Below are positions 2 through 36,324 of a stretch of 64,000 nt of DNA, one piece after another. Position 1 is the first letter of the stretch, and each line of letters starts with the position of its first letter. The notes under the pieces were generated by a model that was given only the letters and a program-made list of their open reading frames with translations, did no database searches and had not been told where the DNA came from. This stretch comes from Gracilaria domingensis. Lineage: Eukaryota > Rhodophyta > Florideophyceae > Gracilariales > Gracilariaceae. The translations under genes were made by a program, and so were the position numbers. The stretch spans positions 124,001 to 188,000 of the forward strand of contig VCMS01000063.1 of NCBI GenBank assembly GCA_022539475.1. Reading direction: 5' to 3'.

Positions 2-1642
2 TCTCATTTCGACGTCGACCACAATGGGTACCTCATCAGACGCTCACCTTTAGACGGAGCTCTCCAGAAGGTCGTACCTGAGTCATTAAGACAAAGGGTG
101 TTATATCTGTCACACAATCCACGGCTTTCGGGACACCCTGGAGCCACGCGGTTGTACTATACCCTTCGGAGGCAATTCTACTGGCCGCATATGGCTAACG
201 ATGTATATACCTATGTGGCGCAATGCAATTCGTGCATTAAGACCCGAGGTGGTGTGGCGAAGCACAGGAAGTACCTAAAGCTATTCCCGGCGGCGGGGCC
301 CCTGGAATTCGTAGCAATCGACATACTGGGGCCCCTGCCTAAGACCTCAGAGGGTTACCGCTTTGTAGTAGTCATAACCGACAGGTTCACAAAGCTCACC
401 AGAGCCATACCTCTGAAGAACCAAACGGCAACGACACTAGCGACAGCCTTCCTGGAGAATTGGGTCTACCCGTACGGTGCTCCCATGTACCTACTGACCG
501 ATAACGGTTCGAACCTAGCTTCTAAGTTCTTCGAGGCGGTTTGTACAATGCTAGGGGTCAAGCACTACTTTACCACGGCCTATCATCCGCAAACAAACGG
601 CCAAGTGGAACGCTTCAATAAGACCCTAGTGGCACGCCTACGGCACTATGTCGAAGAGCACCAAACCACATGGTCTGAGTATGTCCAACCATTGACATAT
701 GCGTACAACCTCCAGGTCCACAGGGTCACTCAAACAACCCCATTCGACCTGGTACTTTCGCGAACACCACATGGTATTATCGTCCAGCCCGGACCTGACC
801 GCTCGGAAGCGGCCGGGACACTCACACCGGCGAAGGTCAAGAGAAACATACTCCAGAAGTTACGCGCCACTTTGGCTGCTGCCAAAGTTAAGATGACAGC
901 AGCCCAAGAACGGTATAAAGCGGACTATGACCGAACGGTGAGCAAAGTGACCAAAGTGGTAGCAGGAGACATGGTCTTCCTTGACGTGCCACCAAAAGGT
1001 AAGCGACCAACCCCAGCGGAGATGGAAGAGGACATCCGCCTTGAGGAGGATATCAATTCTAAACTACTACCCAAGTCCACGGGACCATACAAGGTGATTC
1101 GCTCCGATGAGCATACCGCTACGGTCATAATGGAAGGTTTGGAGAACACGGTCTCCATCGACAGGATTGTCAAGGCCGCACAACCGACGACAGCGAATAC
1201 ACAACCAATAGGTGAGCCAACGCAGCAAGAAGCGGAGAGGGAGCAAACGTCTCCCATACCCCCTCCTATGATGAGTCAGCCGAGCGGTCAACCTTCCACC
1301 AGAGCCGTAACGGCTGACCCCACGACCCAAGCGGCACAGGAGATCGAGCCTCGGCAAGACCAACGGGTCACACCACCCACGGGGAGCCACGCACCCCATG
1401 ACCAAATGGAAGAGTCACACCCTCAAGTAGACACTCAGGAGTGCGCTATTGACACCATTGTAGGTCACGAACACACCACAAAGGGTATGCGCTACCGGGT
1501 AAGATGGTATGGATGGTCGCCCGAGCACGACTCTATGGAACCACCTGGTCATATCCCTAACAACTTCATCATCCGATACTGGCGCAAACAAGGGCGAACG
1601 CCCCCACCAACTGGTATTGCTTCGCGTGGTACGCGTCGCTAA
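2..1642 (+). CDS. pol: Pol polyprotein C-terminus: integrase and chromodomain (copy A), 5' partial
   Basis: The frame is open from base 2, so this is the end of a longer polyprotein. It contains the HHCC zinc-binding region (final pair CNSC), then the integrase core with DDE residues in VAIDILG, LLTDNGSN and GQVERFNK. A basic C-terminal domain, a Pro/Thr/Gln-rich linker and a chromodomain near the end (YRVRWYGW ... PPGHIPNNF) follow. Integrase inserts the cDNA; a chromodomain usually directs insertion to modified chromatin. The frame has no internal stop over 546 codons, unlike copies C and D, so A is the youngest-looking family member here. The stop TAA overlaps the purine tract at 1641. Confidence 0.93.
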   Translation, partial: SHFDVDHNGYLIRRSPLDGALQKVVPESLRQRVLYLSHNPRLSGHPGATRLYYTLRRQFYWPHMANDVYTYVAQCNSCIKTRGGVAKHRKYLKLFPAAGPLEFVAIDILGPLPKTSEGYRFVVVITDRFTKLTRAIPLKNQTATTLATAFLENWVYPYGAPMYLLTDNGSNLASKFFEAVCTMLGVKHYFTTAYHPQTNGQVERFNKTLVARLRHYVEEHQTTWSEYVQPLTYAYNLQVHRVTQTTPFDLVLSRTPHGIIVQPGPDRSEAAGTLTPAKVKRNILQKLRATLAAAKVKMTAAQERYKADYDRTVSKVTKVVAGDMVFLDVPPKGKRPTPAEMEEDIRLEEDINSKLLPKSTGPYKVIRSDEHTATVIMEGLENTVSIDRIVKAAQPTTANTQPIGEPTQQEAEREQTSPIPPPMMSQPSGQPSTRAVTADPTTQAAQEIEPRQDQRVTPPTGSHAPHDQMEESHPQVDTQECAIDTIVGHEHTTKGMRYRVRWYGWSPEHDSMEPPGHIPNNFIIRYWRKQGRTPPPTGIASRGTRR

Positions 1643-1792: not shown

Positions 1793-2911
1793 TTAGGAGG
1801 CCTTGGAGGACCCACGGCCACGTCCGCGTCCACGACCGGTTCCACGACCGCGACCACGTCCACGAGAGGTCCCGCGAGATAAAGCGGAACCTCCACGACC
1901 AGAGGACACCGACACAGGTCCGGCGGAGCTTCCGCCCCCGCCGCTAGCCGCGCTCGCTGGCGCACCACCACTTGGTAAGGGAGCAGAAGTACCAGCAGGT
2001 CCCGCAGGGGTACCGCTGCTGACTACCGGCATGGTATTCGCAGGACCAGTGGGTGGATGGAAGGAAGGCGGTAAGCTAGACGGAGGGATGCCACCAGAGG
2101 TCGGAGGAGCAAGACCACTAGACGGCCCTGCACCGGGGGTCAGACCAGTAGGCGGCATAGGAGCACCGGACGTCGACGGAACCGGAGCCGAACGGAAACC
2201 AGTTGAGAAACCACTGGGTGCTCCTGTCCCAGTACTTGCTGGAGGAAGAGGAACGTTGTGAGGACCAAGCGGAGTATGGAAAGGTGCCGAAGGATCACCA
2301 CCAGGAGGTCCACCAGGGAGTTGATACGTACCAAGGCCACCAAAGCCTACCATTGGGGTCGCAGGTTGCTGTGACGCAGGAGCGTACGGGTTGAAACTTT
2401 CCACAGGGGGTCGATGTAACGGCGCGTGGCCTTCCACAAGGTTGCTCAACTGACCAACATAGGCTGTCACCTCACGGTAGAGATTGCGCTGGAAGTAGTC
2501 GCGGAACTGTCGCAGCTCAGAAGTGCGCCGCTCGTGGTGAGCAACCACGGGGTGCAAGTTGGTAAGAGTATCTACAGCGGTGAGGATGTCATTTGGACCA
2601 GGACGGTTGAAGTGCACCATCGAGGCGTGGTTGAGACGAGCCAGAGCGCTCCGTATCGCGCCACTATCACCACCAGGGGGCACCGGATTCACCGGAAGCG
2701 ACTGGAAACCAACCCGAAGAGGCCCCTGGGCAGCCCGTCCGGGAGGGTGAGCAGCCGCCTGAGGGTTCGCCGGACCACTTGGAACAGGCGCAGCCACGCT
2801 GGTCGGAGGAGTAGCCTGTACAGGTGCCGACGGAGGCAATGCGGGGGACTCATAGTTCTCGGCAGCCACCATCACGGTATCGTCATTACCAAATGGGTCT
2901 TCGCCAGCCAT
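1793..2911 (-). CDS. Antisense ORF2: Pro/Gly-rich protein with C-terminal RG repeats
   Basis: 372 codons from ATG at 2909-2911. Three parts are visible: an N-terminal Pro/Ala-rich stretch; a helical-looking stretch at about residues 85-170 (contains NHASMVHFNRPGPNDI); and a long Pro/Gly/Ser-rich tail that ends in repeated Arg-Gly pairs (RGRGRGRGTGRGRGRGRG), a composition typical of RNA-binding RGG boxes. It is in the same frame as antisense ORF1, separated only by a TAG and two codons, so it may be the readthrough tail of one 896-codon protein or a separately started protein. I know no family for it. The low-complexity coding sequence on the opposite strand gives shadow frames that I discarded. 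Confidence 0.6.
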   Translation of the reverse strand: MAGEDPFGNDDTVMVAAENYESPALPPSAPVQATPPTSVAAPVPSGPANPQAAAHPPGRAAQGPLRVGFQSLPVNPVPPGGDSGAIRSALARLNHASMVHFNRPGPNDILTAVDTLTNLHPVVAHHERRTSELRQFRDYFQRNLYREVTAYVGQLSNLVEGHAPLHRPPVESFNPYAPASQQPATPMVGFGGLGTYQLPGGPPGGDPSAPFHTPLGPHNVPLPPASTGTGAPSGFSTGFRSAPVPSTSGAPMPPTGLTPGAGPSSGLAPPTSGGIPPSSLPPSFHPPTGPANTMPVVSSGTPAGPAGTSAPLPSGGAPASAASGGGGSSAGPVSVSSGRGGSALSRGTSRGRGRGRGTGRGRGRGRGSSKAS

Positions 2912-2917
2912 GTGCTG

Positions 2918-4483
2918 CTATTGGAGAGGCACGATGCTATGAACCTCCGGGTCGTAGACATCCCAACCCTGTTCAGGCCCCCAATTGTGGTTACTTACCG
3001 CAGTGAGGTAACCATCCAACTGCTGCGCAGTATATTTGGTGCCCTCCACGATGTTGGAGAGCCCCATGGCACGAATGTCGCCGACCACATCGTTGGGAAT
3101 ATTGAAGATACGACCAACTGGTTGAGTTCCGCTGATCCCGACAGACTTGTCAGGGCAGCGCGTGTCCCAAGTCACACCTTCCACGGAAGCCTGAAGGGCG
3201 AGGATAGCCACCATGACGGCCCACTCGCTGCGCGCGACCGACCAAACGGCATACGCGTTGTTCCTCTCGAGGGAGATGCTACTACCAAAGTACGCAAGGA
3301 CCGGCGGGGTCGGCACTTCTAGCCACTGACATACTTCATAGTGGTCCCACCAAGAGGGTCGATTGACATACCATGTCCGGCGGTTGTGGTCGCTCTGCGA
3401 CCAATACTCAACGTTGTGGAACAGGAACATGGTCCGCGTACGGTTGTTACGGTGACGAACACGGCTCTCAGCCATCGCATCGGTCGCCCACCTCCCACGG
3501 TCAGTCCAATAATTGGTATCTAAAGGGCGCTCAAACGCGACGTACTCCAGATCGACCTCGATGTGCGTAGCAGGTTCGTCCAAGCGGTGAAGGATATCTA
3601 CCAAACGGCGGAAGTAGTGGACCTCTCCATCGCAGCGGATGAAGGGGAGATCCGATGGTATGGCCACGGGGATGTAGTATAGAAACTTCGTGTGTCGCTG
3701 CCGCGCATGGAAACACTGTTGTCGACCGAACCGGCTCTGCTTCTCGCCCTTGCGTGGTGGAGGAGGTGCCATAGGCACCGCCTCCAACCGGCGACAATCC
3801 CAACGGGCAATTGCGGTATACTGCGTGAGACCCATGTGGCGGAACCGCAAGGGACAGAATGAGGAACTGATGTGGAAAGGCCAGTTCCCCAGAGCGACCA
3901 ATTCGGCGGAGATATCGGCAAAGCGTGCACCATAGTGGGCATGCGGCTGCCCGTGCGTCCTATTAAGGTCATGAGGATTCAGCTGTTGAGCCTCCACCGT
4001 ACCGGCTACCACAAGAGGGTTAACATTGCTCGGACCCGCGACGGCCGCGTAGGGATCATACCCACCGCGACCGTAAGGGTCTTGACGAGAGCGCGTATTC
4101 GACCGCGTGTTAGGCTTGAAGATGCCACCGCCGCGGCCGCGCGCTACCCCAGGGGTCTTGCCAGACATCCTCGACCGGGAGGCAACAGTTTCGCGAACCG
4201 AACGGTTGACCTCCGCCGAGGGGGAGACTTCAGAAGCCGAATATCCCTTTATAGGGTCGTAGTGCCGCTCCTCCAATACCAAGTGGTTGGCCTCCACGGG
4301 AGCCTCGGCGCCCGATGGAAAGGACACGGGTGTACCGGTCTGGGACGGCAGACAGGGCTGCGAAGAGTCAACCACGTGGTAATTCGATTGAAACGGCGCC
4401 GTCTCACCCCCGGGGTCCACCACACCGGGAAGGGCGCGCGTGATGCCCTCCTCGGCACCGTCTTCACGGCGTTCGAACGTCAT
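2918..4483 (-). CDS. Antisense ORF1: unknown protein shared by two gypsy families
   Basis: 521 codons from ATG at 4481-4483. The first 200 residues look disordered (GRGGG and repeated Arg/Ser). Residues about 200-520 look folded and Trp/Tyr-rich (WSVARSEWAVMVAILALQA). Residues about 270-520 align by eye with residues about 205-460 of the antisense frame of element B (9575-11392). Shared points are the Arg-Arg/Thr strand, the Pro-rich turn, the Trp-Ser...Glu-Trp-x-Val helix, an IPN/IPE helix and the final VYDP / VYFDP segment. The homologous part stops exactly at the TAG (2918-2920; context CAA TAG CAG CAC). It carries no retroviral motif that I recognise. A role such as an extra structural or silencing-related protein is only a guess. 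Confidence 0.72.
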   Translation of the reverse strand: MTFERREDGAEEGITRALPGVVDPGGETAPFQSNYHVVDSSQPCLPSQTGTPVSFPSGAEAPVEANHLVLEERHYDPIKGYSASEVSPSAEVNRSVRETVASRSRMSGKTPGVARGRGGGIFKPNTRSNTRSRQDPYGRGGYDPYAAVAGPSNVNPLVVAGTVEAQQLNPHDLNRTHGQPHAHYGARFADISAELVALGNWPFHISSSFCPLRFRHMGLTQYTAIARWDCRRLEAVPMAPPPPRKGEKQSRFGRQQCFHARQRHTKFLYYIPVAIPSDLPFIRCDGEVHYFRRLVDILHRLDEPATHIEVDLEYVAFERPLDTNYWTDRGRWATDAMAESRVRHRNNRTRTMFLFHNVEYWSQSDHNRRTWYVNRPSWWDHYEVCQWLEVPTPPVLAYFGSSISLERNNAYAVWSVARSEWAVMVAILALQASVEGVTWDTRCPDKSVGISGTQPVGRIFNIPNDVVGDIRAMGLSNIVEGTKYTAQQLDGYLTAVSNHNWGPEQGWDVYDPEVHSIVPLQ

Positions 4484-5502
4484 CGATCACCCCGTTGGGG
4501 AAGCGGGTTGATCACCCATGAGGTATAAAAGGCGCGAGTTGGAGCGAGAGCGTGCCACGGAGGATACCAACCGAGAGGGGGAACACCACCAATTGGATGA
4601 CTAGATGAAACCTGGGGGGTCACAGAGAACGGGCACGCCGCTCGAGCGAGCTGACACACCGTGAAAATGACCAGGGTTGTGCGCCGGCTGGACGGGTTCC
4701 GTGAACAAGGGAGGTCACAACCACCCCAGAGGGAACCTGAGGGACGGAAGGAGACCGCGAGGAACCAGGTGAAGGGGCGCTGAACGCCGCGCAGTCGGGT
4801 AAACCCCTCGGCTGGACCTGAATCAAGCCTGAACACCACGATGAGGCAGACCACTAGGTAGAAGCGGCGTCAGCACCGGTACGGTCACGAAGTCTGAAGA
4901 GCCACGGGCAGGAGTCTCCTCACCCTCGACGCGGCCGCCCAAGGCAACGACACCCCAGTGGCGCCCTCACTCAAGCAGAGAGACAGTACGTGTCGGAACC
5001 AACGAGGTATCACCTCAGTACGGCACAAGACCAAGTGGCCAACAAAGAATAGGAGCGACACCACGAGGGGGCGGTGTGCCGATCGGTTGACAACTGCGAA
5101 CCCCACCGAAGGGAGGCTCGAAACCAACTGGTAAGCCGGGACTAACCCGCCCAGGGGGAGGACGGACAGGGGAAGATGGAGTGGCGGACTCCTCCGGGAG
5201 GGACCGAAGAGGCGAAGACAACCACGTGGTACCAGGCGCGCGACAAGATCAACCTAAATGGTCGCGGTTCGCGGTTTTGCGTCCCAATACCACGAGGGAT
5301 GTAAGGTACGGTCGCACCTACCACAGGGGGTACGGCGGCGTGGGTAATGGCGCTGCAGTGCATGTGGCGAACCGCGCCGTGCACCGCGCCGTCTTCGCGT
5401 CATCGCGAGACGCGCCGTGCGCCAGGCGATGCGCGCCGACGACCGTTTGGCGAAAAGGCGGCCAACGCCGTGGGAACTTCGCAGCCACGGGGCGTGCCTG
5501 TC
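4484..5502. other. Noncoding region between antisense ORF start and PPT (copy A)
   Basis: About 1 kb, GC-rich, no convincing frame on either strand. It would hold the 5' leader and promoter of the antisense transcript. It contains ACCANNTGGT palindromes at 5123-5132 and 5221-5230. TATAAAAGG at 4523-4531 reads on the plus strand, the wrong way to serve the antisense frame. Confidence 0.5.
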
Positions 5503-5515
5503 GGTAGGAGGGGGG
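5503..5515 (+). other. Polypurine tract of copy A
   Basis: A G-rich purine run (GGTAGGAGGGGGG) ends two bases before the TG that starts the LTR. This is the expected position of the plus-strand primer. Confidence 0.8.
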
Positions 5516-5517
5516 TT

Positions 5518-6089
5518 TGTAGTATAGCTCGGCCAGATCAACGGGGGCTCTACAAGACCAAGTGGTGACGTCACGGGCTCCCGGGCACGTGTGCCTACTG
5601 TACCACGTGGGACGCGTAAGCGCAGGCTTGGACAAGACTAATTAGTCTATTTTCGTTAATTTAGAATTAATATTTACTCGGTAGTGTAGATATGTGGCCG
5701 GGGTGGTGCACCACAAATGCACCTCCCGGTGGCCCACGTGGCACTAGGCCCGTGAGAGCCGGAGGGGCGCTCGGGTGTACTAAACCCCCGAGACGCCAAC
5801 CTCCCACACCAAATGGTAAAGTCAAGCACCAACTAGGCTGATTTGACACCAGTTCGGTTCTACAGTCACCAATTGGTAAGTCTAGTAGTCCTCTAATAGT
5901 TTTGCTGACCTCGAGGGTTATACGTGCCTGCCGCACACCAGTGCAGGCGTATTTACCACTTGGTCACCGTGCACTATAGGCAAAGGTGGGTGCTGCCGAC
6001 CTATTAGGTGTCACGCGTTTCACTCCTCCGCCGGGTCGAGCCCACGCGGGGCTCCCCACTAGCAGCTCGCACCGATCGGTTATACCACA
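5518..6089 (+). repeat. 3' LTR of copy A (572 bp)
   Basis: Starts TGTAGTATAG and ends TTATACCACA. The whole length matches the 5' LTR of D (33299-33869) with few differences, and the LTR of C with more. It holds four ACCANNTGGT palindromes (5557, 5808, 5868, 5955). The boundaries are fixed by comparing three copies. Confidence 0.92.
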
Positions 6090-9056
6090 CTGATGCACTG
6101 TCCCGCTTGGAAACAGCTATTAAAGCTGCGCCAGTCGATGATGACCTGAATATACCGTGCTTCCTCGCGGAAGACGGCTGGAGCGATGCCGATGAAGATT
6201 CAGAAGGATGGAAAATCTACGATGCTGTTTTAGCCGCTGCAGACACGCGCCCAGAACCGGGTTCTTTCGTACCGAACAAGCCGGAAGAACGCACCAAGGG
6301 GCAGCACACGGACCGTTTTTGTACGGAGATTCGTAGCCGTCTGAACGGCGGAGCACGACTGCCTTTCGTCGAGAACGACCAAGGATTCCTCATCCGAACT
6401 ATCGGGCGCAGGCCACAGATTGTGGTTCCTCAGTCACTTCAGTCACTAGTACTGCATCTGTCGCACTATGCAAAGCTTTCAGCCCACCCTGGTGACAGGA
6501 AGTTGTACTACACCTTGAGGAAGGACTTCTACTGGCCAGCGATGGCTTTTTGATGCGTATGCCACTGTTCGTGGATGTTCTGATTGTGCAAAAAACCGCG
6601 TCAAACTGCGGAAGTATTCCAAGAAGTTGGTACTCTTCCCTGCTAGGGCTCCACTCGAGTGCGTGGCTATCGACTTGCTCGGCGAGTTTATTCGCACTCG
6701 CCAGGGAAACCGGTTCCTACTTGTGATCACCGACCGCTTTTCAAAGCTGGTACGGACTGTGCCTTTGAAGAAGGTTACTGCCAGTGCGGTCGCCCAAGCT
6801 TTCGTTACACACTGGGTTTTTGTCTACGGACCGCCGATTGATTTGTTATCGGATAATGGAAAGCATTTTGCAGCTAAGTTCTTTCAAGACGTCTGCCGCA
6901 TCTTGCGGATCCAAAACTGGTTCACGACAACATATCATCCCCAGAGTAATGGGCAGGTTGAAAGCTTTAACCGCACAATGCTCAATGCATTACGGACGTT
7001 CGTGGCCGAGCATTCGTCGGAATGGGATCAATACACCGATGCGGTGACGTATGCCTACAATACGCAGGTTCATCGTACTACTCAGATCTCGCCGTTCGAG
7101 CTTGTGCTATCACGCGTTCCACCGTCGGTGGTCATCGAGCCACAGCCAGTACTGGACAAATTCCCGTCGCCCCGCCTGCATAGGAACGCGTGGAAGGGAT
7201 GGCTCACGAAGATCATTCCTACGGTTAGGCAGAATATCGCTAAGGCACAAGCCGCCTACAAGCGGAATTTTGACGCCAGAGTGCGCAAACCTGCCCCTCT
7301 GATCAGGGAAGCCAGCTATGCCTTCATACGCAAGAAATACTACAATCTCGAGAAGGAGAAGCGCCACAAGCTTTCTGCTATCGCGGATAGTCCCTACCGG
7401 GTCATTTCAGTTACCGACACTATGGCTGTCCTTGACATCAACGGAGAGCACAAGGGTTTCTCGCGGGATCGCGTAACGCCTGCACCAACGCCTGCTTCTC
7501 AGAAAACGCAACTGGAAACGCCAGACGCCGCTACGCCTACTGTGGAACCAGCCGCCGAAGTGGGAGCGCGCACTTCGTTGTGCGTATTGCCGCATCCCAA
7601 ACGCGGACTTGCTGATTTGCCGGCTGAGCCGGAATCTCACCAGTCAGTCTCGGCTGCCGCTCACGTACGCACGCGGATACTGGCCCCTCCGGGGATACTG
7701 AGCACCGCCCCCGACGCTCCAAATGAGGAGAGGGAGGGGGAGGCAAATCGCTCGCTGTCGTTGTCGCCGTCGTCGACGGAATCGCTGATGCGGGCCTCAA
7801 TGTCGCACGCAAGCCGTGGTGAACGCGCGAGGACGCCCGACGGACAGCCGAACAATCGGAGAGACGCTAACAACGCGCAGTTATCGCGGAAGCCTGAGGA
7901 GGAACGCACCACTTCGGTGGAGCACAAAGCCGGACACCCGGAAGAGTACCAGAGTGTAGCTGCTGCAGAAATTGCCGCTTTGCCCGCGGATGGTACTGTA
8001 CTGCCGTCACAGACTGAAGGACAGGAGCCTGTCCCAGCTGTGCACTGTGAGACCGGCACGCCGGAAAAGAGTGTCGTAAACACAACAACAGCCGCATCAA
8101 ATGCGGAACATACACGCTTGCCGCAGCCGGAGCCCGACAGCGGTAGCGCACCTGCGCTGAGGAAAGCCGGAAGTCCGGAAGAAAAGTTAGTCAAAAGAGA
8201 CCGTGCTGTTACGGCAGACCAGACTTCGGGAGATCTTAGCGAAGCATCGGGTGATGAAGCCGTTGAAAACACGGAGGAAACCGCCGATATGGCGAGCCGA
8301 TACGCCACAGTAAGTCGGCAGCAGCACAACGCTGCACGCACGCACACAACGCGCCAAGTGTCCGGCTTCGCCGGCGATCCGCCTCCAGTGGAGGACAACA
8401 GCACACGAGCCGGGCACGTGCTTGCTGTAAGGCTCGCGGCCGCCGAAAACGAAAATCCCGAATTTGAATCGGCATCGCACAGCCGTGCAACGGCGCATAC
8501 GCAGTTGAGTGGCGAAGCGCCGCCACGGCGCGCACAGCAGCACCACTGGCTGGCGCACCGCAATGCGGACCGTTCACCCTCACGACGGAAGAGCCCGCCG
8601 GAACGCCGGAAGCTCGCTGTTCGAAAAGACCGAAGTAAGGTCACAGCCCGACAACACGGGAAGGAAAGCCAGAAATCTGGAAGCCTGAAGGATAGGAGCA
8701 CGCAATCGTCACCAGAACCACCTGGCATACAGAACGCACTCCTGTCAGGACGGAAGCCGTTTGGCAGCGATGCCCACGACAGGAAAGCAATCAACGACAC
8801 CTCAGAAAAGGGCACAATAACCGAACCGCACACTGAGTGGCGTGTCCTCCACAGGGAGTACGTTATGGACCGTCTGATTAGTCACGGCTACGCCTCTGAT
8901 GGAGAGCTTTTGTATCGAGTCCGTTGGTACGGCTGTCCTTCGTCGAAGGACACACATGAGCCTATCGAGCATTTGCCTCGCTCTGAGATTCTACAGTACC
9001 ACCGTCGCACATGGACACCGATACCGGCTACGCTGGACAAAGCCCAAGTAGGTTGA
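6090..9056 (+). pseudogene. pol: Pol C-terminus of element B: integrase, 500-residue linker and chromodomain, one frameshift
   Basis: The first frame (to 6553) holds the end of RNase H and the start of the HHCC finger (LSHYAKLSAHPG). A run of five T at about 6549 shifts the frame by one; reading resumes with GCSDCAKNR. The core has DDE residues in VAIDLLGE, LLSDNGKH and GQVESFNR. After the integrase comes an unusually long hydrophilic linker, about residues 280-735 of the second frame, with repeated AGxPEE-like units (AGHPEEY, TGTPEKS, AGSPEEK). The chromodomain (LLYRVRWYGCPSSKD ... IEHLP) ends the protein. The frameshift lies in the zinc finger, so this copy is probably inactive; it could also be a homopolymer sequencing error. 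Confidence 0.88.
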
Positions 9057-9078
9057 CCACCAACAACTTGTGAGTCAT

Positions 9079-9484
9079 GCCGTTCCCGACGGAATATGCC
9101 GCTTCACGCGGATGGAATTGCATCATGCAAGACGTGCGGCTTCACGCGGATGCAACGACGTTGATACTAACAAGCCGCCCTAGGCGGACGCTACTGAAAG
9201 GCAGCAACATGCCGCTCTATGCGGACAGTCTCTGTCTGAACAGACAAGCCGCGAAACGCGGAAGCCACTTACAGTGGGGAAGAAGATGAAGAAGAAAGAA
9301 GCCTAAGAAGAAGGAGAAGAAGCCAGAACACTGGAAGGAAGACTACGAAGTTTTATCGCTACAGCCGCTTCTGCGGAAAGTTAGCCCTCTATTGTGGGCC
9401 ACTCGCAACAGCCTCGAACGAGGCATTGTCCCCTGAGGAGGGGCAGAACAAGAAGAAAAATTTGAACCAAGCCAGCATGGCTGG
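9079..9484. repeat. Array of 14 or more non-identical mini-hairpins in element B
   Basis: Short perfect palindromes with stems of 4-6 bp and loops of 2-8 nt at 9080-9092, 9099-9111, 9118-9130, 9175-9187, 9212-9224, 9233-9246, 9249-9261, 9265-9277, 9323-9334, 9365-9376, 9384-9399, 9411-9424, 9430-9443 and 9472-9484. Several stems are CCGC/GCGG, but others are unrelated (TTGCA, TGTCTG, CCACT, GCCTCG, CCAGC). A purine-rich stretch at 9278-9320 separates two groups. There is no protein frame here. Confidence 0.8.
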
Positions 9485-9574
9485 AGAAGTTTACCTCTAA
9501 CTATTGAGTTTTTCCCTCATCATCAGGGTCTATTACGGACTACTACAGCCCGTCAGGGATCTGGAGCCGGTGAA

Positions 9575-11392
9575 TTACAAGCCGGACGGCCCAGCACCTG
9601 GGGTGCCCCCACTACCGGGAGCCCCGGAGAAGCGCTGGGCCGCTATCGCTTGCAATTCCGACTCGTCGGTCACCATATCGGGAACGGCCACTCCCACGCC
9701 TCGAAGGAAGTCGCGAATGACCGCCGCTCGCGGAATGAGAGAGGGACTGCCGCCCCCGGCGGATGCTACATCCTGAGCCCATGGGCCGGTCGGAGCGGGA
9801 GCCGCTACAGCGGGTGGGACAACAACCACGACTTCGTCGTCATCTCCCGTAGCTTCGGGCTCCGATACAACCCCCACGCCCTCTGGGCTCCCCGCATCCA
9901 TGGCGCTTCCTTCCTCTGCAGGGTCATCACCGTCATCGTTGACGTATACGAATCCTCGCGGGTGCCCTTCCGGGATATGACGCTCCTCTCGGCGGCGACC
10001 AGCCGCCTCAGCGGGACCAATTATCTCCCAAATCCATGGGTCAAAGTATACGAAGTCGCCGGCATTGGCGTTCCATCCCGAAGAACGGTCCGACTGCCGA
10101 CGAACCCCGTCGGAAATCTGGCTAGCAGGCACCTCGTTCCAGTCAATCTGGTCGATGACGTCCACCAACGCAGTGGCTTCGCGCGCATTGCGGACCGAGC
10201 CGAGTACTTCGGAGAGATCCAGCGCTCGGATTGCTTGCCGGATGAGCTCCGGGATGAACCAAACCCGGTACGAATCATATGCCTCGATGAGGAGGAAAGC
10301 CGCAACGCGGACGTTCCATTCTGTTGCAAGGATGCTCCACAGGCCGCAAGGCGGATCGTTCATGAAATACGAGTCTATGTAAGTTAGGCAGGGCGGTAGC
10401 TCTACTTGACACCCTCGTGGGACTTCGACCGCAGGCCAGAATGACGGCAGCGGTAGGTATCGCCCAGTATGGGAGTGACGCGCGATGCGCTCAACCTCCG
10501 TGCACTGGTACGGCACCAGTACCGTGAAGCGGGAACGCCATTTCCTCTCGAAACGGAGGCCTTCATGAAATTGAGACCGTGCAGAACGGCGAAGAACCGG
10601 GAGCTCGGCACGAAGAATGGGCCGCGCCCACAGGATCAACTCCTGCTGCGGCTGAACGGTGTCCGAATATCGGTCGATTTCGTCCAACGCGTTGGCTAGA
10701 TCGTCGCCGTAGCCGACCTTGCCGAAAGTTCGGTAACGTGCCACGTCATACTGGTACTGGGCCGGCACCGGATGCTCATTCGGAGCTCGGAAGTGTCGCG
10801 CGTACCCAATGCGGGCCATCTCATTGCGAGCAAATTGTCTCGTCTCGTTTCGACCTACAAACAGGCAACTCGGTGTGACCGCAACGCGGGCGATCCAGTC
10901 CCATGAACGGGTAACGTCAGCAGAAAGCCCACCAGGGAGTTGACCGTCGACAGCGTACGAGTCGACGAGCTCGGTATCCTGAACGGCCTCGGCGTCAAGC
11001 CAGGGAGCCTGGGCAAAAAGGAAACTGTGCCGGTGGGGATCCCAGATGCGTAACGCGCCTGCGGTAGGCCACCCACCCAGCGTAGCTGGCATCTCGGCGT
11101 TGAAGCAATCCCATACGGGCGCGGGACCAGCCTGATCTGGAGCGTGATCTTGTCCGGAAGAACCCGGCTGGGAGGCAGCCGCCGACTGCGGGAGAGGTAC
11201 AGACCGGAACGGCGGGTTGGAAACTTGCATACGTGCCGTCGAAGACGGATCGGCGTTCGGTTTGTTGGATATAGCGGGAGGGCTCGAGATGGCGAGGTTC
11301 GCTATTGACACCGGAGGTGTTGGTGGTTCCGAACAGTTCTCGGCAGACCCGTCTTGGGAGACTTCCTTATATACCTCCATCGCGAGGCGCAT
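9575..11392 (-). CDS. Antisense ORF of element B, homologous to antisense ORF1 of copy A
   Basis: 605 codons, ATG at 11390-11392, only 41 bp from the inferred LTR start. The N-terminus (about residues 1-95) is Ser/Pro/Ala-rich. Residues about 100-460 look folded and Trp-rich (GLWSILATEWNVRVAAFLL). Residues about 460-605 are acidic and then Gly/Pro-rich, ending GGTPGAGPSGL. Its residues about 205-460 align by eye with residues about 270-520 of antisense ORF1 in A, up to VYFDP. Unlike A, there is no stop between the folded part and the tail. An intact 605-codon frame in an element whose pol carries a frameshift suggests selection or youth. Function unknown. Confidence 0.72.
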   Translation of the reverse strand: MRLAMEVYKEVSQDGSAENCSEPPTPPVSIANLAISSPPAISNKPNADPSSTARMQVSNPPFRSVPLPQSAAASQPGSSGQDHAPDQAGPAPVWDCFNAEMPATLGGWPTAGALRIWDPHRHSFLFAQAPWLDAEAVQDTELVDSYAVDGQLPGGLSADVTRSWDWIARVAVTPSCLFVGRNETRQFARNEMARIGYARHFRAPNEHPVPAQYQYDVARYRTFGKVGYGDDLANALDEIDRYSDTVQPQQELILWARPILRAELPVLRRSARSQFHEGLRFERKWRSRFTVLVPYQCTEVERIARHSHTGRYLPLPSFWPAVEVPRGCQVELPPCLTYIDSYFMNDPPCGLWSILATEWNVRVAAFLLIEAYDSYRVWFIPELIRQAIRALDLSEVLGSVRNAREATALVDVIDQIDWNEVPASQISDGVRRQSDRSSGWNANAGDFVYFDPWIWEIIGPAEAAGRRREERHIPEGHPRGFVYVNDDGDDPAEEGSAMDAGSPEGVGVVSEPEATGDDDEVVVVVPPAVAAPAPTGPWAQDVASAGGGSPSLIPRAAVIRDFLRGVGVAVPDMVTDESELQAIAAQRFSGAPGSGGTPGAGPSGL

Positions 11393-11420
11393 CGAGCCGA
11401 CGGAGTCGGTGTCTCAGCCT

Positions 11421-11433
11421 GAGAAGGGGGAGA
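11421..11433 (+). other. Polypurine tract of element B
   Basis: GAGAAGGGGGAGA lies directly before TGTAG, the inferred LTR start. The LTR of family A also begins TGTAG. Confidence 0.65.
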
Positions 11434-12287
11434 TGTAGAGCAAAACGCCCTTCGTGGGGATGCACCGAGGTGTTTTTCATAGTTTGTTGATCCGTTACCG
11501 GCTTCGACACTTCAGGTTATGAGAGGTTACTGTAATGATGGCCCCATTTTGGGGTATGCCTCAGAAGGGTAGTGTTTCCGCACACGTGTGCTGAGTTGGC
11601 CCGATGACGGGTGCGATGTGGCAAGCCTGCCACGGTTTCACACGTGTAGGATGGTGGCCAGCAGCACCGGATAGTTAGATATTTTTAGTTGATATTTTCA
11701 AGTGCCCTATATAGGTGGCGGCACTTGCCGCCACTGTACGGGAAGTAAACCTCAAGGAGGCTTCTGGCTCTGACTTTCTTGCCGCTTGTGAACGGTTTTC
11801 GTCCCTAATCGGGCAAGCCGCCGCAATTCCGGGCTAGTCATCCGACCTCTACCACTGAGGAGTTCTAGTCCGTCGTTACGGCATCTTTTCTGTTGTTTTA
11901 TTGTTATTATTTCCGTCATACGGCTCCTATCACTCTGCCCTGTTAAGCAGGTTTGACCCACATTGTCTGGGAAAATTTCTTGATGTAACGAGTCAGTGCA
12001 CCCCCGCGCGGCTCGTTCGCTGTCTGTTTTGCCCAACACCGTTGGCCTGGATATCTCCACCCGCTGTGGCTCGCCGGAATTACGCGGATTCTACGCCGAT
12101 TCTACCGACCCCAACCTCCGGCTGCACGCCCAGGACGGGGCTGCCCGGATTTACAGCCGGCCTTTGTCAGCCCTACCGGAGGGTTCTACCACCGTCCCTA
12201 CCCCTATAGGGAGCGGGGCTCGAACACCCTGTCGGTGCGTTTTCCACGACGCGGCTCTTGTTTGCGCACTCGTGGGATTGCACCACA
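11434..12287 (+). repeat. Probable 3' LTR of element B (about 854 bp)
   Basis: Starts TGTAGAGC after a purine tract and contains the palindromic TATA motif CCTATATAGG (11704-11713). It is taken to end at ACCACA, like the LTR of A. Directly after 12287 an unrelated transposase frame starts. Only one copy is in the window, so the ends are inferred rather than shown. Confidence 0.55.
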
Positions 12288-12805
12288 CGAAACGCCCTTT
12301 TGCTTCCTCCCATTGAATGCAAGGACTGTGTACCGAGATCCAGCAGGTGTCGACAGTGCCATATTTTTGCAGTGGGTAGAAGTTTTTGTGGAGGAAACAA
12401 ATACACTGCGGAAGAAACATAAGTTTATTCTACTGACAATGGACGGCTATGGTGCTCATTGTACTTATCGTTCACTCCAATTGATGCTTCAGAACAACAT
12501 TGTCGCAATCGGCCTCCCCGCCCACACGAGTCATCGTACGCAGGTCCTCGACTACTCTGTGTTTTCTCCATTTAAGAACAGATTCCGAAACCTGCTTAAT
12601 GAACGAACGTTACAAAACAAGGCCACACGAAACGACATATACACACTGTGTGAGATACTCAACCATTCGTACAATTACGCCGTACGTTACACAAACATAG
12701 TTAATGGCTTCTCAGCTTGTGGAATATGGGACAATCAAACGAAAGGGCCTAATCACAGGGTCAGAATGCATAACGATATCACAAACATCGGTGAACATGG
12801 CAGGA
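12288..12805 (+). pseudogene. pogo/Tigger-like DDE transposase, C-terminal catalytic fragment
   Basis: The frame reads FLQWVEVFVEE, then LLTMDGYGAHCTYRS, then GLPAHTSHRTQVLDYSVFSP. These are the second and third acidic positions of the DDE_1 superfamily (pogo, Tigger, jerky). The part with the first Asp is missing because element B occupies the left side. On the right the frame is cut at about 12805 by the truncated end of retrotransposon C. It is a relic of an older DNA transposon that served as target for later insertions. Confidence 0.7.
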
Positions 12806-15565
12806 CATCAAGGAAGACCATGTCTCCCTCTACCACTTTGGTTACTCTGCTCACCTGACGGTCATAGTCCGCTTTGTATCGCTCCTGGGCCGCTGTCATC
12901 TTGACCTTGGCGTGCGCCAGGGCGGTGCGGAGCTTCTGGAGTATCGTCTTTTTGACCTTCGCGGGGGTAAACCTACCTGCCGCTTCGGAGAGTTCTGGTC
13001 CCGCCTGGACAATGATACCCTGTGGTGTGCGCGACAGTGCCAGGTCAAAGGGGGTCGTTTGCGTCACCCTATGGACCTGGAGGTTGTACGCGAACCTCAG
13101 TGGCTGTACGTACACCGACCACGAGTTTTGATGTTCCTCCACATAATGACGTAGGCGCGCCATGCGAATCTTGTTAAACCTCTCCACTTGGCCGTTAGTT
13201 TGTGGGTGATAGGCCGTAGTGAAGCAGTGCTTCATTCCTAACATGGTGAAAACGGCTTCGAAGAACTTCGAAGCTAAGTTTGAACCGTTATCGGGCAGTA
13301 AGTAGATCGGAGCGCCATACGGGTAGTCCAGTTTTCTAAGAAGGCTGTTGCCAAGGTGGTCGCTGTTTGGTTCTTGAGGGGTATCGCTTTTTTCAGTTTC
13401 GTGAACCTATCGGTTATGACTATCACAAAGCGGTAACCCTCTGAGGTCTTAGGCAGGGGCCCTAGTATGTCGATGGCCACAAACTCCAGTGGTCCCGGCG
13501 CCGGGAAGAGCTTCAGGTACTTCCTGTGCTTCCTAACACCACCTCGGGTCTTGATGCACGAGTTGCATTACGCCACATAGGTGTATACGTCGTTAGCCAT
13601 ATGCAGCCAGTAAAATTGCCTCCTTAGGGTGTAGTACAACTGCGTGGCTCCGGGGTGTCCAGACAGCCGCCGGTGGTGCGAGAGATATAACACCCTTTGT
13701 CTCAATGACTCTGGTACAACCTTCTAGAGGGCTCCGTCTAAGGGCGAGCGTCGGACCAGGTACCCATTGTGGTCTATGTCGAACTGGGAGTTCTTCTTTC
13801 CCAGCACGTCGACGAGCGTCTTACACCATCTATCGGTCGATTGCTCTCGTAGAAATTCCTCACGGGTGATTGGGGCGTGCCCTCCTTCCTCCACAGGGAT
13901 GAGGACCTCCTCTACCACTTGGTACGTGCTGTCATCATCCCAATAACCCTTGAGAACTTCGTAGACCTCTCGGTTTGTCGTCTCCACCGTGAAGCACGGG
14001 ATATCGTCTTCCACGGGGTCTGTATCTAACCCATTGGTGTTTAAGCGCGACATAGCGTCGGCTACCTGGTGTTTGATTTCCGGGCGGTACTGTACATCGT
14101 ACTCAAACTCTGAGAGTCTCAGGCGCCATTAAGGTAAACGGCCCGATGCGTCTGCCAAACCTAATATACATCTCAAGGAGCCTTGATGCGTTCGGAGCGT
14201 GAAGCGTACACCATATATGTAAGGACGCAGCATGAGCATACTCCAGACAACCGCTAGGCAATCTTTTTCCGTTACGGTGTAGTTCTATTCCGCTTGGTTC
14301 AAAGCTCTGCTCCAATACCCGATCGGTGCTACCGTGCCGTCCTGCTGCTCCTGCATGAGGCAGCAACCTATTTGGGCGTCTGATACGTTTGTGTCCAGCG
14401 TATATGGGAGACCCGTCTTGTGCAGTGCCAGTACCGGTTGGGAGAGATGCGCTGCTTTCAGTGTGTAGAAGGCCTCTACCTCCTCCTCCTCCAAGTGGTC
14501 AAAGTGGGTGGGTTGCCCCTTCTGTAATCTCCGGTTCAGGGGTTCAGCTATCTTTGCAAATCTCTTTATGAACCGGCGGTAGACGCTACATAGACCTATA
14601 AAGGATCGTATGTCTGTCTGCGACGTAGGGAGCTTCGATTCTTGCACCGCTCGGATATTCCGTTTGGTTACTTCGAGTTTCCCGGGGCTTATGGTGTGGC
14701 CTAGGTACTCTACCTCTTGGTTGAAGAACATATATTTCCTTAACTTGAGGGTCACGCCTGCTTTCCGTAGCAATGCTAGCACCACTTGGACGTGCGAGAA
14801 GTGCTCTTCAATGGACTTCGAGTGGATGACTACGTCGTCGATATATACCAGTGCGATCGTTCACTTCACCTTGGACAGTATAATGTCCAAAGCCCGTTGA
14901 AAGGTGGCTGGGGCGTTCCTTAGACCGAACGGCATGCGTAAAAAACGATTAAGCCCCGCGTGGCATGTAAACGCAGTCTTGTCACGGTCTCATTCTAGTA
15001 TTTCGATCTGCGAATAACCGCCGTTCGCGTCCAGTGTGGTGAAGATGTTGGCATCTTCCAGGGAGTCAATTCATTCATCCATCCTCGGGATGGGGTATGA
15101 GTCCCTCACCCTTACGGCGTTCAGTTTTCTGTAGTCAATACAGAACCTCATACGGGTCTCCCCTCGTTTCTGGACTAGCAGGACCGGGCTAGCCCATTCC
15201 GAGTTAGCCGGCTCTATCATCCCCTCGCGGAGCATTCGTTCCATCTCTTCCAGGTCCACCTCTCGTGCCTTGCGTCCCGCGCGGTATGGCTGTTGGTGGA
15301 TGGGACGGGAATCCGGTTTGAGGTCAATCCTATGCTGGGTGGCCTTAATGGCTCCAAGCTTCCCAGACCACATGGTACTAAATGGCTGCAAGAGTCGGAG
15401 GATCTGAGCTCCAAGCTCTTCGCCTTCGAGGCCTATATTCACCTCCGCTTTCCAATTGGTAACTGGATCGAGCTTCAATTTCTGGTCTTCTCGCTCGGCT
15501 AATTGCCGCGCTCTATAGTCTGTTTGCGGCAAATTGGCGCTGCCTCCTCCCTCCTTAGCGTCCAC
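12806..15565 (-). pseudogene. pol: Copy C pol: reverse transcriptase, RNase H and integrase remnants
   Basis: Fragments in order: RT N-terminus (15565-15071; RFCIDYRKLNAV), RT centre with the catalytic YIDD, RT thumb and start of RNase H (14785-14285; YTLDTNVSDAQIG), the RNase H-integrase spacer (14053-13724), integrase core (from 13480; AIDILG) and integrase end (13244-12806; GQVERFNK). Compared with D and A I see nonsense changes at DEC (TGC to TGA, 15071), in the GD/DR segment, before the YIDD (TGG to TGA) and in the zinc finger (CAA to TAA). A frameshift follows FLENW. It cannot make a working enzyme. Confidence 0.85.
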
Positions 15566-15580
15566 GACCTCGTGGGGCCA

Positions 15581-16384
15581 TTATAGTGTAATCGTTAAGA
15601 TCATACGAGAGGCTGGTAGAGCCAGACCAATTATAGTGTGCTTTGGCAACTTGACCGGGCGGTTGCTGAAATTACTGAGGTAGACCTGAAACCGTTTCAT
15701 CGGTATATTATCGACTATGCCATTTGCCATAATGGTCATATGTCGTTCGGCCAGCCGTGAATGGTTCTGAATGGATAACAAGCCGGGTTGTTGGCATGTT
15801 ACGTTCACGACCACGTGGTTCATAGGTGGTATAGTCAGCGCCTTTGCTAGTCGCACCTTGTTGGAGAGTGCATTTTCCGAGACCGGTTGGTGTCTTATGC
15901 CCTTCTTCGTCGGAGAGGCACCTTTGTGGTTACCAATAATGGCGATACGGGGACCATTATGGAACAGTACCGTCTTGGAGCGTGGGAAGATTGCTTTGAC
16001 GCGCTGATCTATAAACGTTCTCCCCAGAATACGGTCTGTTGCCAATTGGTTGACCACTATGAAGCGAGCTCGGACCTTCATGGTGTCGATTAATACCATT
16101 ATGGTAAGCGCTCTCATGACAGTTAGTGGTCTATTGTTAGCGTCCACCAGTGGGTTAGTTAGTGTACATGGCCGAAGCTTATCAAGTTGTCGGTTAGTTA
16201 GTAGTTTGGCATTAACCAGATTAGGTTCTGCCCCGGTATCCTGGACAGTGACGCACGGTACCAAGTGGTTAGAAGTAAACCCGAGGGTGACGTTTACCTT
16301 ATAGTTACTATGCTTGAGAAAGCATATTGGTTCGGTGCCACTCGTGAGGCTCTCCTCCCCTGTAACCAATGGGTAATTGTCCAT
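15581..16384 (-). CDS. Copy C aspartic protease region of pol
   Basis: 267 codons from ATG at 16382-16384. The active-site triad reads DTGAEPN, and a typical second motif is DRILGRTFID. It starts 56 nt after the gag stop, in the -1 frame relative to gag, the same spacing as in copy D. Retroviral-type proteases mature Gag and Pol. The frame ends just before the reverse-transcriptase frame and is probably part of a longer polyprotein. Copy D has DTGAGPN; both differ from the usual DTGA-S/T pattern at the fifth position. Confidence 0.8.
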   Translation of the reverse strand: MDNYPLVTGEESLTSGTEPICFLKHSNYKVNVTLGFTSNHLVPCVTVQDTGAEPNLVNAKLLTNRQLDKLRPCTLTNPLVDANNRPLTVMRALTIMVLIDTMKVRARFIVVNQLATDRILGRTFIDQRVKAIFPRSKTVLFHNGPRIAIIGNHKGASPTKKGIRHQPVSENALSNKVRLAKALTIPPMNHVVVNVTCQQPGLLSIQNHSRLAERHMTIMANGIVDNIPMKRFQVYLSNFSNRPVKLPKHTIIGLALPASRMILTITL

Positions 16385-16440
16385 ACTTGCAGCACTTGGT
16401 TCCGGAAGGCCTTCCGCATTCGGACATTTGGGGATGGCCT

Positions 16441-18396
16441 CTATCCCAACTGCTCGGCGTTATCCGCCTGCCAGGCGGAGTCCGGTTGGTCATGCTCCGT
16501 GATGATGTGTACCTGATGGGGTGTGGAGGCGTTGGAGCTCGCATTTGCCTTTCCAGTGCCTGCGCTCAGCGCCGTGGGCCCGAATATGTCCTGGTGGTTC
16601 TGGTGGCGAGCAGTCAGGAGCGCATTCCTGTTCTGCGGCGCCACGCTTGGACACCCTGTTGCCAAGTGGTGCGGCGACAAGCAAAACCAGCGTAGAAGAT
16701 TTCCCGTAGCGTGGTCTTTAAGTGCGAGTGAGGACGCGCGCGAAGGGGGACGACCTCCTGTGGGTGCCGCGCTCCGTTGCGGCGGAGGGAGTCCGCCTCC
16801 ATATCGGTTTACTGGCACCGCTACAACCGGACTGACCGGCGCGGATGCCTGGGATGATGGAGTTGGGGTTTGCCTCGAGGGGGGCTCGCTTGACAGCGAG
16901 CTAGACCAAGAGGTATTACCGCGCGATCGGGTGTTCGTCGGTGCATGCACCAAGTGGACTGGATGACCCTCCGAAGCATATTGTGTGGACGCCTCGTCCA
17001 TAGTGGTCTCTCCTTCTTCCACGTCGAACACGGACCGCCTGGTTTTTCCTTTCTCCTTCGATGTTTTGCCAAGTGGTACGGAATACCTCCGGGCGCCTGA
17101 CCGAACGGTATCGCGTAGCCCTTGAGCGTGGCGGGCTAGTGCGTTAGAGTCGACCGTGCGGTTCTTGGCTAGGTAGTTGCGAGCCTGTGATCGGATGGAT
17201 CTCGCCACGTTGTCGGCGTACATCGATTTCAACCTCTTGGTAGTAAAGACGCTTCCACCGCGGGAGGCTAGCGCCCATAGGGAGCGAGCAAATTCCAGTT
17301 CGGTCTGTCCCGCGCCCTGACGATACGCGTGGACCTCTGCGTACCCCTCCTGAACTACCTCATCGGTCGCATAGGTTTCCAGTAGGAAGTTAACCACCTG
17401 TGGATATGTCGTCAACATTTCCGTTTGGTTTTCGTCCACCGCCATGGTATTCCCTTGGAGGCGGCTATGGAGCAAAGCTCCGGCTTGACCGTTTAGGTAA
17501 AATTGAAACAGCCACATGGCTGCTGCTTCTGAAAACCCGTTCTGGTCACACGCGATCTTAAACCTCTGAAGGAAGTCAATGATCGCGATAGGGTCATCCC
17601 CGCTGAAGCGAGTCTCACCCAATAGGAAACGAAGCTTCCTATGATGCTTCGTTATCTTCTGGGCTACCTCTTTGGTATACTCAGCCTGTCTGTTCTCCAA
17701 CCTATAGGTGCGATAGTCAACCGCTTTGGTGAATAAATCATTTAGCGGTGTAAGTACCTCTAGGTCAGTCTCCTCGTCGGAAGTTGAGTCCGAATCATTA
17801 TACCGTTTGTTTTTACCCTTGCGGGAGTTCTTTCCCCTCTTCAAGCGAGAGTCCTTCCTCTTGCGTCTAGAACCTTTACGGTCGTCGTCTCCTGACGAGT
17901 CCGAATCGGTGTCTGAGGACGAAGAGTCCGAGTCCGATCGGCGACTCTTCCTCTTTCCCCTGTTGGTCTTCTTCTTCTTACTAGTTGGTTTACGTCGACG
18001 CTCGTCTTCTGAGCTTGACGAATTCCCACCAGGATCTCCACCACTTGGTCCTGACGGAGCTACACCAGTGGGTTGGGGGAGGTACTCTTGAGAGTCTCGA
18101 TCAACAACCACTCGGGTGACCTCGTTCAGGTCCAGCCGCGGCCCGAGTAGGACCTCCATTTGGTCTACCACTGTTACTGGAACGGGCTCCTCCGTTGCGG
18201 AGCCTGCTCCTTCGTCCACTTGGTAAGCCCGGGGAAGGGTCGAGGGGCCCCCAGCCTCTCGGTCTACCTTCTTCCCCTTAGGTGGGCGTTCCTTCCGAAT
18301 TAGGTCCTCCGTGTTATCCAACACCGGATAAGACACTGAACCCCGTACAGAGTAACCACTTGGTGGAGCGCTCGGCGCCCTTTTCAGGTGACGCAC
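16441..18396 (-). CDS. gag: Copy C Gag
   Basis: 651 codons, one open frame. Parts: Pro-rich N-terminus; a Ser/Asp/Lys/Arg-rich charged region (SDSDSSSSDTDSDSSGDDD); the capsid-like domain (FSGDDPIAIIDFLQRFKIAC; AMWLFQFYLNGQAG); a Ser/Pro linker; and a CCHC knuckle near the end. The knuckle reads RWFCLSPHHLATGC, so the first Cys is Arg here, while copy D keeps that Cys but loses the last one. The ATG used by D (34002) is ATC in C, so the natural start is lost. C also lacks about 95 residues present in D between VVVDR and YLPQPTG. It is probably non-functional despite the open frame. Confidence 0.82.
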   Translation of the reverse strand: MRHLKRAPSAPPSGYSVRGSVSYPVLDNTEDLIRKERPPKGKKVDREAGGPSTLPRAYQVDEGAGSATEEPVPVTVVDQMEVLLGPRLDLNEVTRVVVDRDSQEYLPQPTGVAPSGPSGGDPGGNSSSSEDERRRKPTSKKKKTNRGKRKSRRSDSDSSSSDTDSDSSGDDDRKGSRRKRKDSRLKRGKNSRKGKNKRYNDSDSTSDEETDLEVLTPLNDLFTKAVDYRTYRLENRQAEYTKEVAQKITKHHRKLRFLLGETRFSGDDPIAIIDFLQRFKIACDQNGFSEAAAMWLFQFYLNGQAGALLHSRLQGNTMAVDENQTEMLTTYPQVVNFLLETYATDEVVQEGYAEVHAYRQGAGQTELEFARSLWALASRGGSVFTTKRLKSMYADNVARSIRSQARNYLAKNRTVDSNALARHAQGLRDTVRSGARRYSVPLGKTSKEKGKTRRSVFDVEEGETTMDEASTQYASEGHPVHLVHAPTNTRSRGNTSWSSSLSSEPPSRQTPTPSSQASAPVSPVVAVPVNRYGGGLPPPQRSAAPTGGRPPSRASSLALKDHATGNLLRWFCLSPHHLATGCPSVAPQNRNALLTARHQNHQDIFGPTALSAGTGKANASSNASTPHQVHIITEHDQPDSAWQADNAEQLG

Positions 18397-18525
18397 GCCC
18401 CGTTTCTCGATTTAGGGAACTGGTGTCGGGGCAAATTGCTTCGGCAACGGGAACCAAACCACTCGAGTATTTCGTGACTTCCAAATCCTCCCTTTCCAAA
18501 ACCACTTGGTATTACACAAATTCTA

Positions 18526-18538
18526 GGTCGGGAGACCA
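18526..18538 (-). promoter_or_regulatory. Putative primer-binding site, copy C
   Basis: On the minus strand TGGTCTCCCGACC starts five bases after the LTR end. The same place in D has TGGTCTCCGGACC. The TGG start fits pairing with a tRNA CCA end; I cannot name the tRNA. Confidence 0.5.
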
Positions 18539-18543
18539 AAAGA

Positions 18544-19112
18544 TGTGGTATAACCGGTCGGTGCGAGCTGTGAATGGGGAGCCCTACGTGGGCTCGACCC
18601 GGCGGAGGGTTGAAACGCGTGACACCTAATAGGTCGGTAACACCCACCGTTGCCTATAGTGCACGGTGACCAAGTTGTAAATACGCCGGCACTGGTGAGC
18701 GTCAGGTTCGCATAACCCGCGAGGTCAGCAAAACTAAGAGGACTACTAGACTTACCAATTGGTGACGGTAGAACCGAACTGGTTTCGAATTAGCCCAGTT
18801 GGTGCTTAACTTGACCATTTGGTGTGGGAGATTGGCGTCTCGGGGGTCTAGTACCCCCGCGCGCCACTCTGGCTCTCACGGGCGGAGTGCCACGTGGGCC
18901 ACCGGGAGGTGCAATTGTGGTGCGCCACCCCGGCCACATATCTATACTACCTAGCAAATGTTAATTCTAAATTACTAAAAATAAACTAATTGGTCATTGC
19001 CATGCTTTTGCATACGCGTTCCACGTGGTACAGTAGACACCCGTGCTCAGAGCCAGGTGACGTCACCATTTGATCGAATAGAGCTCTCGCCGATCGGGCG
19101 CACTATACTACA
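18544..19112 (-). repeat. 5' LTR of copy C (569 bp)
   Basis: On the minus strand it runs from TGTAGTATAG (19112) to TTATACCACA (18544) and aligns along its whole length with the LTRs of A and D, with more substitutions. The first palindrome (ACCAAGTGGT in A) is degraded here, while ACCAATTGGT and ACCATTTGGT remain at 18754 and 18814. Confidence 0.9.
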
Positions 19113-25387: not shown

Positions 25388-25752
25388 AGCGGAGTAGAAC
25401 GCGAGGATGGCACGGATCACGACAGTAACAAAAGATCGGACGTCGGACGGGCGGGGGCGGCGGCGGAGGGAAGAGATTTATTTTTCTGTGCGAGATTGGA
25501 CAAGTGTACAGCGTACAACGTTGGGAAACCACAGGTTTATAACCAGTGGTAGATAATACGAGAAGTACACCCTTGTATTGAGGTCGACGTGTACCTACGT
25601 TCCTTTTTGAACGAAAGCACGTGATTTAAACTCAAAATATATTCTCCGTTCTGAGCAACACGTCGATATTGACTGTCGCTCGACCTCCTTCTCCCTTCGG
25701 ACGCCCTTCCCTTGCAGTCTTTGTCGTCGTTTCTCGTTCATTTCTTCTTCCC

Positions 25753-36268: not shown

Positions 36269-36324
36269 AGGCCTTCCCCAACTGTCCGAAGACGGAAGGC
36301 CTTCCAGAACCCAGTGGTGCAAGT

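Follow-up and report, generated by a model that had tools for sequence, protein, structure and literature searches.

The window analysed here was a stretch of 64,000 nucleotides of Gracilaria domingensis DNA (contig VCMS01000063.1, positions 124,001 to 188,000 of the forward strand), in which two LTR retrotransposons, here called A and B, were found one inside the other (Table 1). Element A was assigned to the Ty3/gypsy chromoviruses from the order of its pol domains (Pfam RVT_1, RT_RNaseH, Integrase_H2C2, rve and Chromo) and the chromodomain at the end of its integrase. The full element had gag and pol frames of 754 and 1552 codons, and its 5′ LTR lay upstream of the window. Just within this 5′ LTR was a palindrome, TTTTGGTCTCCGGACCAAAA (L029 2945-2974), which may have a bearing on the priming of reverse transcription. 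A was nested in B: its insertion site was the pol of B, which continued directly after A, and the insertion was accompanied by a 4-bp duplication.

Table 1. Features of elements A and B in the window (position 1 is the first nucleotide of the window).
Feature	Position	Strand	Basis or remark
Element A, pol end (integrase zinc finger, core, chromodomain)	2..1642	+	Pfam Integrase_H2C2, rve, Chromo
Element A, antisense protein, C-terminal part, 374 codons, RG-rich end	1793..2917	-	ORF list
Element A, antisense protein, N-terminal part, 522 codons	2918..4486	-	homologous to B; first ATG 4483
Element A, purine-rich tract preceding 3′ LTR	5503..5516	+	sequence
Element A, 3′ LTR	5517..6089	+	573 bp, 98.4% identity with the 5′ LTR
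Target site duplication CTGA, A within B	6090..6093	+	4-bp repeat flanking A
Element B, pol end (integrase, chromodomain)	6090..9056	+	ORFs, Pfam rve and Chromo
Element B, antisense protein, 612 codons stop to stop	9575..11413	-	ATG 11380 or 11392
Element B, purine-rich tract	11422..11433	+	sequence
Element B, 3′ LTR	11434..12287	+	end from the drop-off of copies, start inferred from the purine-rich tract

The pol of B carried rve and Chromo domains (Pfam), and the reverse transcriptase region in the C44 copy of B was 47% identical to that of A. The pols of A and B were 38% identical over 366 residues, which places them in two different chromodomain gypsy families. In the window copy of B the pol reading frame was found to shift near 6520-6570. 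Its 3′ LTR, the single LTR copy of B located, was given an end at ~12287, the point where the alignment of most copies ceased, and an inferred start at ~11434, directly after the purine-rich tract.

Other mobile elements were also present in the window. An inverted gypsy copy related to A occupied 12753-19099 on the minus strand, with arms 79-90% complementary and matches to pol and gag, and its pol end met a DDE_1 transposase frame at 11989-12858. Another A-related gypsy copy, with gag and the beginning of pol, was located at 34002-38320, its matches ceasing at ~38.3 kb. At 25630-28779 there was a 1049-codon frame for a Plavaka transposase (Pfam 1.3e-18), and there were Transposase_21 (tnp2) frames at 40889-42373 and 62455-63276, and a gene fragment resembling Strictosidine synthase / SMP-30 at 23020-23838.

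In both elements a long frame was located on the minus strand between pol and the 3′ LTR, and the coordinates bore out the first-pass annotation of this DNA, which had described two gypsy families with antisense frames placed after pol and before a purine-rich tract and LTR. The annotation had split the frame of A into pieces of 1566 and 1119 nt; these positions held, but in 13 of the 87 A matches listed a single frame ran unbroken through exactly 935 codons (hand count), so that the window copy of A, with its two frames, appears to be interrupted. The frame of B, which had been described as 605 codons from position 11392, was present as well; its start, however, is likelier to be ATG 11380, since the residue equivalent to ATG 11392 was Ile in all nine of the B loci compared, out of 19 other B loci. 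This start codon lay ~40-55 nt from the inferred beginning of the LTR, while ~1 kb separated the start of the A protein from its 3′ LTR. The A protein ended in an RG-rich C-terminal tail. Whether the frame is open in other copies had been set as a test of the annotation, and no internal stop was found in 61 of the 87 A matches and 51 of the 72 B matches listed; a frame of 610 was given for 59 of the latter (all hand counts). In these searches of the 77.9-Mb genome the best 83 of 1034 candidates were scored for A and the best 72 of 1306 for B, and the copy numbers are therefore lower bounds.

The two antisense proteins were then compared. BLASTP aligned them over 256 columns with 22% identity (7e-12), and the Smith-Waterman score of 129 may be set beside a maximum of 63 in 150 shuffles and 43 with B reversed. 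A profile of 11 relatives, built without A, matched A over 215 columns with a score of 96 (Prob 97.6, E 4.2e-12), while in the same-protein controls reversed A scored 20 and 50 shuffles reached at most 28.6. The similarity is far above chance and indicates that the two proteins are homologous, so the claim of homology stood up to the profile-profile check.

Evidence for selection on the frame was obtained from its copies. The pN/pS ratio was 0.245 among 13 distinct ungapped A cores and 0.113 among 17 distinct B frames, and variable sites at codon positions 1, 2 and 3 numbered 25, 19 and 48 in A and 9, 8 and 33 in B. The window copy of B differed from another copy (L010) at 113 sites, with a pN/pS of 0.258 and no stop. 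When the same number of random differences was placed on this pair in 2000 neutral simulations, the mean ratio was 0.80 and the lowest 0.41, with 3.9 stops on average and only 1.9% of simulated pairs free of stops; the simulation covered this pair. Ratios of 0.11-0.26 indicate purifying selection on the antisense frame, and the dN/dS check proposed by the first-pass annotation thus supports a coding gene.

The window copy of B was also compared with the C44 copy. At the protein level the antisense protein was 91.5% identical and the integrase core 94.1%, while in the pol after the integrase core identity was 70.9% in the next stretch, 64.2% in the tail and 81.3% in the chromodomain stretch. 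At the DNA level the antisense frame was 93.4% identical, the LTR 80.9% (757 of 854 bases aligned) and the interval between the pol and the frame 81.2%. The synonymous distance of the frame between the window copy and 19 copies was 0.13-0.16, near the LTR difference (~19%, one copy), so constraint can explain the contrast between these parts. Many Trp, Tyr, Arg and Pro positions in the core of the protein were fully or almost fully conserved.

The annotation had suggested a search of the genome for further carriers, and three more families were recovered. The motif WSxxxxEWxV, searched as DNA, had 307 genomic occurrences and its backward control had 22, an excess of ~285, and family C (L051) was found through it. 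A search with the core of C gave 150 matches (the best 150 of 1100 candidates) in three groups, namely C itself and two further families, D (~51-56% identical to C among the matches listed) and E (~44-46%), the cores of D and E each being read from one copy. Further matches listed were to E and B in one search and to D and B in another. When the proteins were aligned, those of C, D and E were 41-46% identical to that of B, and the figure for A was 24-27%. Five families of a single genome thus encode the protein. The only relatives with a named source were proteins of Gracilariopsis chorda and Agarophyton chilense, two members of the Gracilariaceae (Rhodophyta). For P0007, which is the A. chilense protein, identity to its matches in the genome of the window did not exceed 40%. 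This genome also gave 11 matches to chlorophyll-binding protein genes. A single-sequence protein search with A returned no relative among the 7992 candidates scored, and alignment-based searches recovered relatives that the single A sequence had missed. The gene probably belongs to chromodomain gypsy elements of the red-algal order Gracilariales, and some 'hypothetical proteins' of Gracilariaceae, such as BWQ96_10156, may be retrotransposon genes.

The position of the frame relative to pol was followed in A, B and E, for E with respect to side and strand only. Frame and pol of A adjoined on opposite strands in eight of ten copies read out at length (C63, C183, C98, C181, C269, C65, C142 and C189); in the other two, C22 and C44, no A pol match was found beside the frame. 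Likewise, the A pol end was on the opposite strand in seven of eight loci and was not found in L004, which is the C22 copy, and the B pol end was on the opposite strand in all 20 loci (the best 20 of 72 matches). For E, the query was a segment matching the A pol ahead of RVT_1, without a Pfam domain, and the first 68 of 78 matches were used, the last 10 being left out as B frames. In 40 of these 68, the 6 kb 3′ of the frame held a pol segment on the opposite strand, at a distance of 3.5-5.4 kb (4,587-4,623 in 31 cases), and in none did this interval hold one on the same strand. On the 5′ side one pol segment was found within 6 kb, and one same-strand segment was 14 kb off. The remaining 28 had no listed pol segment on the 3′ side, which is expected as the best 105 of 2180 pol candidates were scored. 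When integrase positions from Pfam (the best 150 of 1868) were inspected by eye, the recognised neighbours of antisense frames were A, with none for C, D or E.

The first-pass annotation had left it undecided whether the gene was inherited or exchanged between families. For the pairs A and B, A and E, and B and E, identity over common columns was 37.5, 34.5 and 62.0% in the pol segments, compared with 25.7, 22.3 and 48.0% in the antisense proteins. The two sets of distances rank alike, which favours inheritance with the element in these three families and makes exchange the less favoured half of that claim. In a tree of 14 proteins, B was paired with the protein from G. chorda (100/100), C was paired with P0006 (100/100), and the partner of E was P0005 (97/97); A was on a very long branch, so we are unsure of its placement. 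If the hosts differ, the grouping of B with the G. chorda protein indicates that the B family predates the split of the two hosts or has moved between species.

The protein was also compared with known domains and structures. No credible domain match was found in Pfam, NCBIfam or PHROGs, the weak ones being E3_binding (0.029) and phrog_2279 (0.078), each in one of ten members. TRP28 (PF04195) matched none of ten members at E up to 5, and the Pfam matches included no domain indicating nucleic-acid binding. Neither the viral contigs nor a sequence search of the PDB yielded a credible relative; matches at chance level, one to a tail spike (E 1.5) and one to a MAGE protein (E 1.8), were discarded, and a weak local match to the UHRF1 tandem tudor had an E value of 0.0096 with 7 sequences and 0.071 with 10. 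The UHRF1-like stretch of the B core corresponds to window 10390-10549 (minus). Profile comparison gave no support for descent from either the Gag (that of A, Prob 0.1) or the Pol (Prob 1.2) of the element itself, and an origin from the Plavaka transposase of the window likewise found no support in the comparison. No recognisable catalytic pattern was seen in the core. The net charge of P0001, P0002 and P0004-P0011 was negative (-3 to -30), so non-specific binding of nucleic acid is not favoured. The highest 19-residue hydropathy over 15 sequences was 0.97-1.78, exceeding 1.6 in C only, in the conserved WS...EW region.

The AlphaFold models, with mean pLDDT of 31.6 and 37.6, were unusable as a whole. 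In model 1, which was otherwise poor, the C-terminal segment of B, RDFLRGVGVAVPDMVTDESELQ (window 9629-9733, minus), was predicted as two helices (pLDDT 76-83) and resembles a small module made of these helices; recognisable counterparts of this segment were present in P0004-P0010. In the literature on algal, red-algal and Gracilariaceae LTR elements and on antisense LTR frames, covered through titles and the beginnings of abstracts and mostly outside subscription journals, no description of the protein was found; passages of PMC12477816 and PMC5970526 mention only other accessory genes and repeat content. Within these searches, some of which scored part of the candidates, the protein is undescribed, as had been proposed.

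From the observed homology, the position in A, B and E, the selection, the breadth over families and the divergence parallel to pol in three families, we propose that the frame may be an old antisense gene of a chromodomain gypsy lineage, with an accessory protein that is most likely a trans-acting nuclear regulator; as a whole we consider this proposal evenly balanced between being right and wrong. The minus-strand frame would be a real and old gene, and its product an accessory protein of ~600-940 codons with a conserved core of ~250 residues, expressed from an antisense transcript of the element. In B this transcript would most likely start inside the 3′ LTR, and with the start codon 40-55 nt from the LTR an antisense promoter there would be the simplest source of the mRNA. 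The protein would be trans-acting and nuclear, with the nucleic acid or chromatin of its own element as its target, and would regulate transcription or integration, as has been proposed for the Retand/Grande proteins of plants. What we infer is that the frame is transcribed and translated and that its product is nuclear and regulatory; the regulatory role is our best guess by analogy with the plant antisense proteins and from the RG-rich tail in A.

The long core, rich in aromatic residues and arginine, its high conservation and its want of a recognised catalytic pattern would also suit a structural or packaging part of the element particle, such as a second coat or assembly protein, rather than a regulator. 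The Gag of A, however, is unlike the antisense protein in profile comparison, and structural proteins of LTR elements are normally produced from sense RNA, so we think a particle protein unlikely. The protein might instead counter host silencing by suppressing either RNA silencing or the marking of chromatin. An antisense transcript could pair with the sense RNA into double-stranded RNA (PMC7264820), and an element making one could gain from a suppressor. The very weak likeness to UHRF1 points the same way, yet it weakens with the broader alignment and is probably a chance match; we judge this role quite improbable.

Other readings concern the origin and the product of the frame. Between two copies of B, the antisense frame and the integrase core differ far less than the intervening parts do, a mosaic-like pattern that a module recently captured by, or exchanged between, unrelated elements would leave; a host gene captured independently belongs to the same class of explanation. 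Against this, the synonymous distance of the frame is close to the LTR difference, so that constraint can account for the contrast, and the pol and antisense-protein distances rank alike in A, B and E, which makes capture or exchange a poor prospect. There is also precedent for antisense non-coding retrotransposon transcripts (PMC7264820), and the useful product could be the RNA, with the open frame incidental. A pN/pS far under the neutral value and protein homology between families at 22-27% identity contradict this RNA-only reading, which is very improbable indeed. A broader statement would be that a lineage of red-algal chromoviruses has carried, since before its present families split, an antisense gene whose protein has no known relative outside these elements, is under almost as much constraint as the integrase core and is needed for propagation. 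On this view the gene arose independently of the TRP28 antisense genes of plant Retand elements, and antisense accessory genes beside the 3′ LTR would be a convergent answer to a problem that gypsy elements share. To this statement we give somewhat less than an even chance.

Antisense genes near the 3′ LTR are known from several systems. HTLV-1 HBZ and related retroviral antisense proteins are minus-strand products from near the 3′ LTR (PMC11963269), and in B, too, the start codon adjoins the LTR; the present protein differs from HBZ in having no match to bZIP or any other Pfam domain. Boty of Botrytis, a fungal LTR element, likewise has an antisense extra frame (PMC7264820). Env-like frames of plant LTR elements occupy the same site, from pol to the 3′ LTR (PMC7264820), but they lie on the sense strand, whereas the protein described here is encoded on the opposite strand and has no convincing membrane segment.

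The closest parallel in arrangement is found in plants, and the first-pass annotation was right to point to antisense or extra frames in plant gypsy elements: those of the Retand lineage (Grande gene23, RIRE2, Retand ORF4) encode antisense TRP28 proteins (PMC11963269, PMC7264820). According to these papers, one plant antisense protein is nuclear and a regulatory role has been proposed for the plant ones (PMC7264820, PMC11963269). The likeness is the place of the antisense frame, which in A and B, too, lies after pol and ahead of the 3′ LTR. Retand elements, however, are non-chromoviruses of flowering plants with TRP28 (PF04195), while A and B have chromodomains and red-algal relatives, and against the TRP28 domain of the plant proteins none of the ten members here gave a match. 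A second, apparently unrelated protein at the same site in distant chromoviruses suggests convergence. The many natural variants found here could be used for testing what antisense accessory proteins of this kind, whose genes lie near the 3′ LTR in flowering-plant and fungal elements as well, do. The antisense arrangement was thus already known from plant and fungal elements; what is new is a protein that looks unrelated to theirs, in a different lineage of elements.
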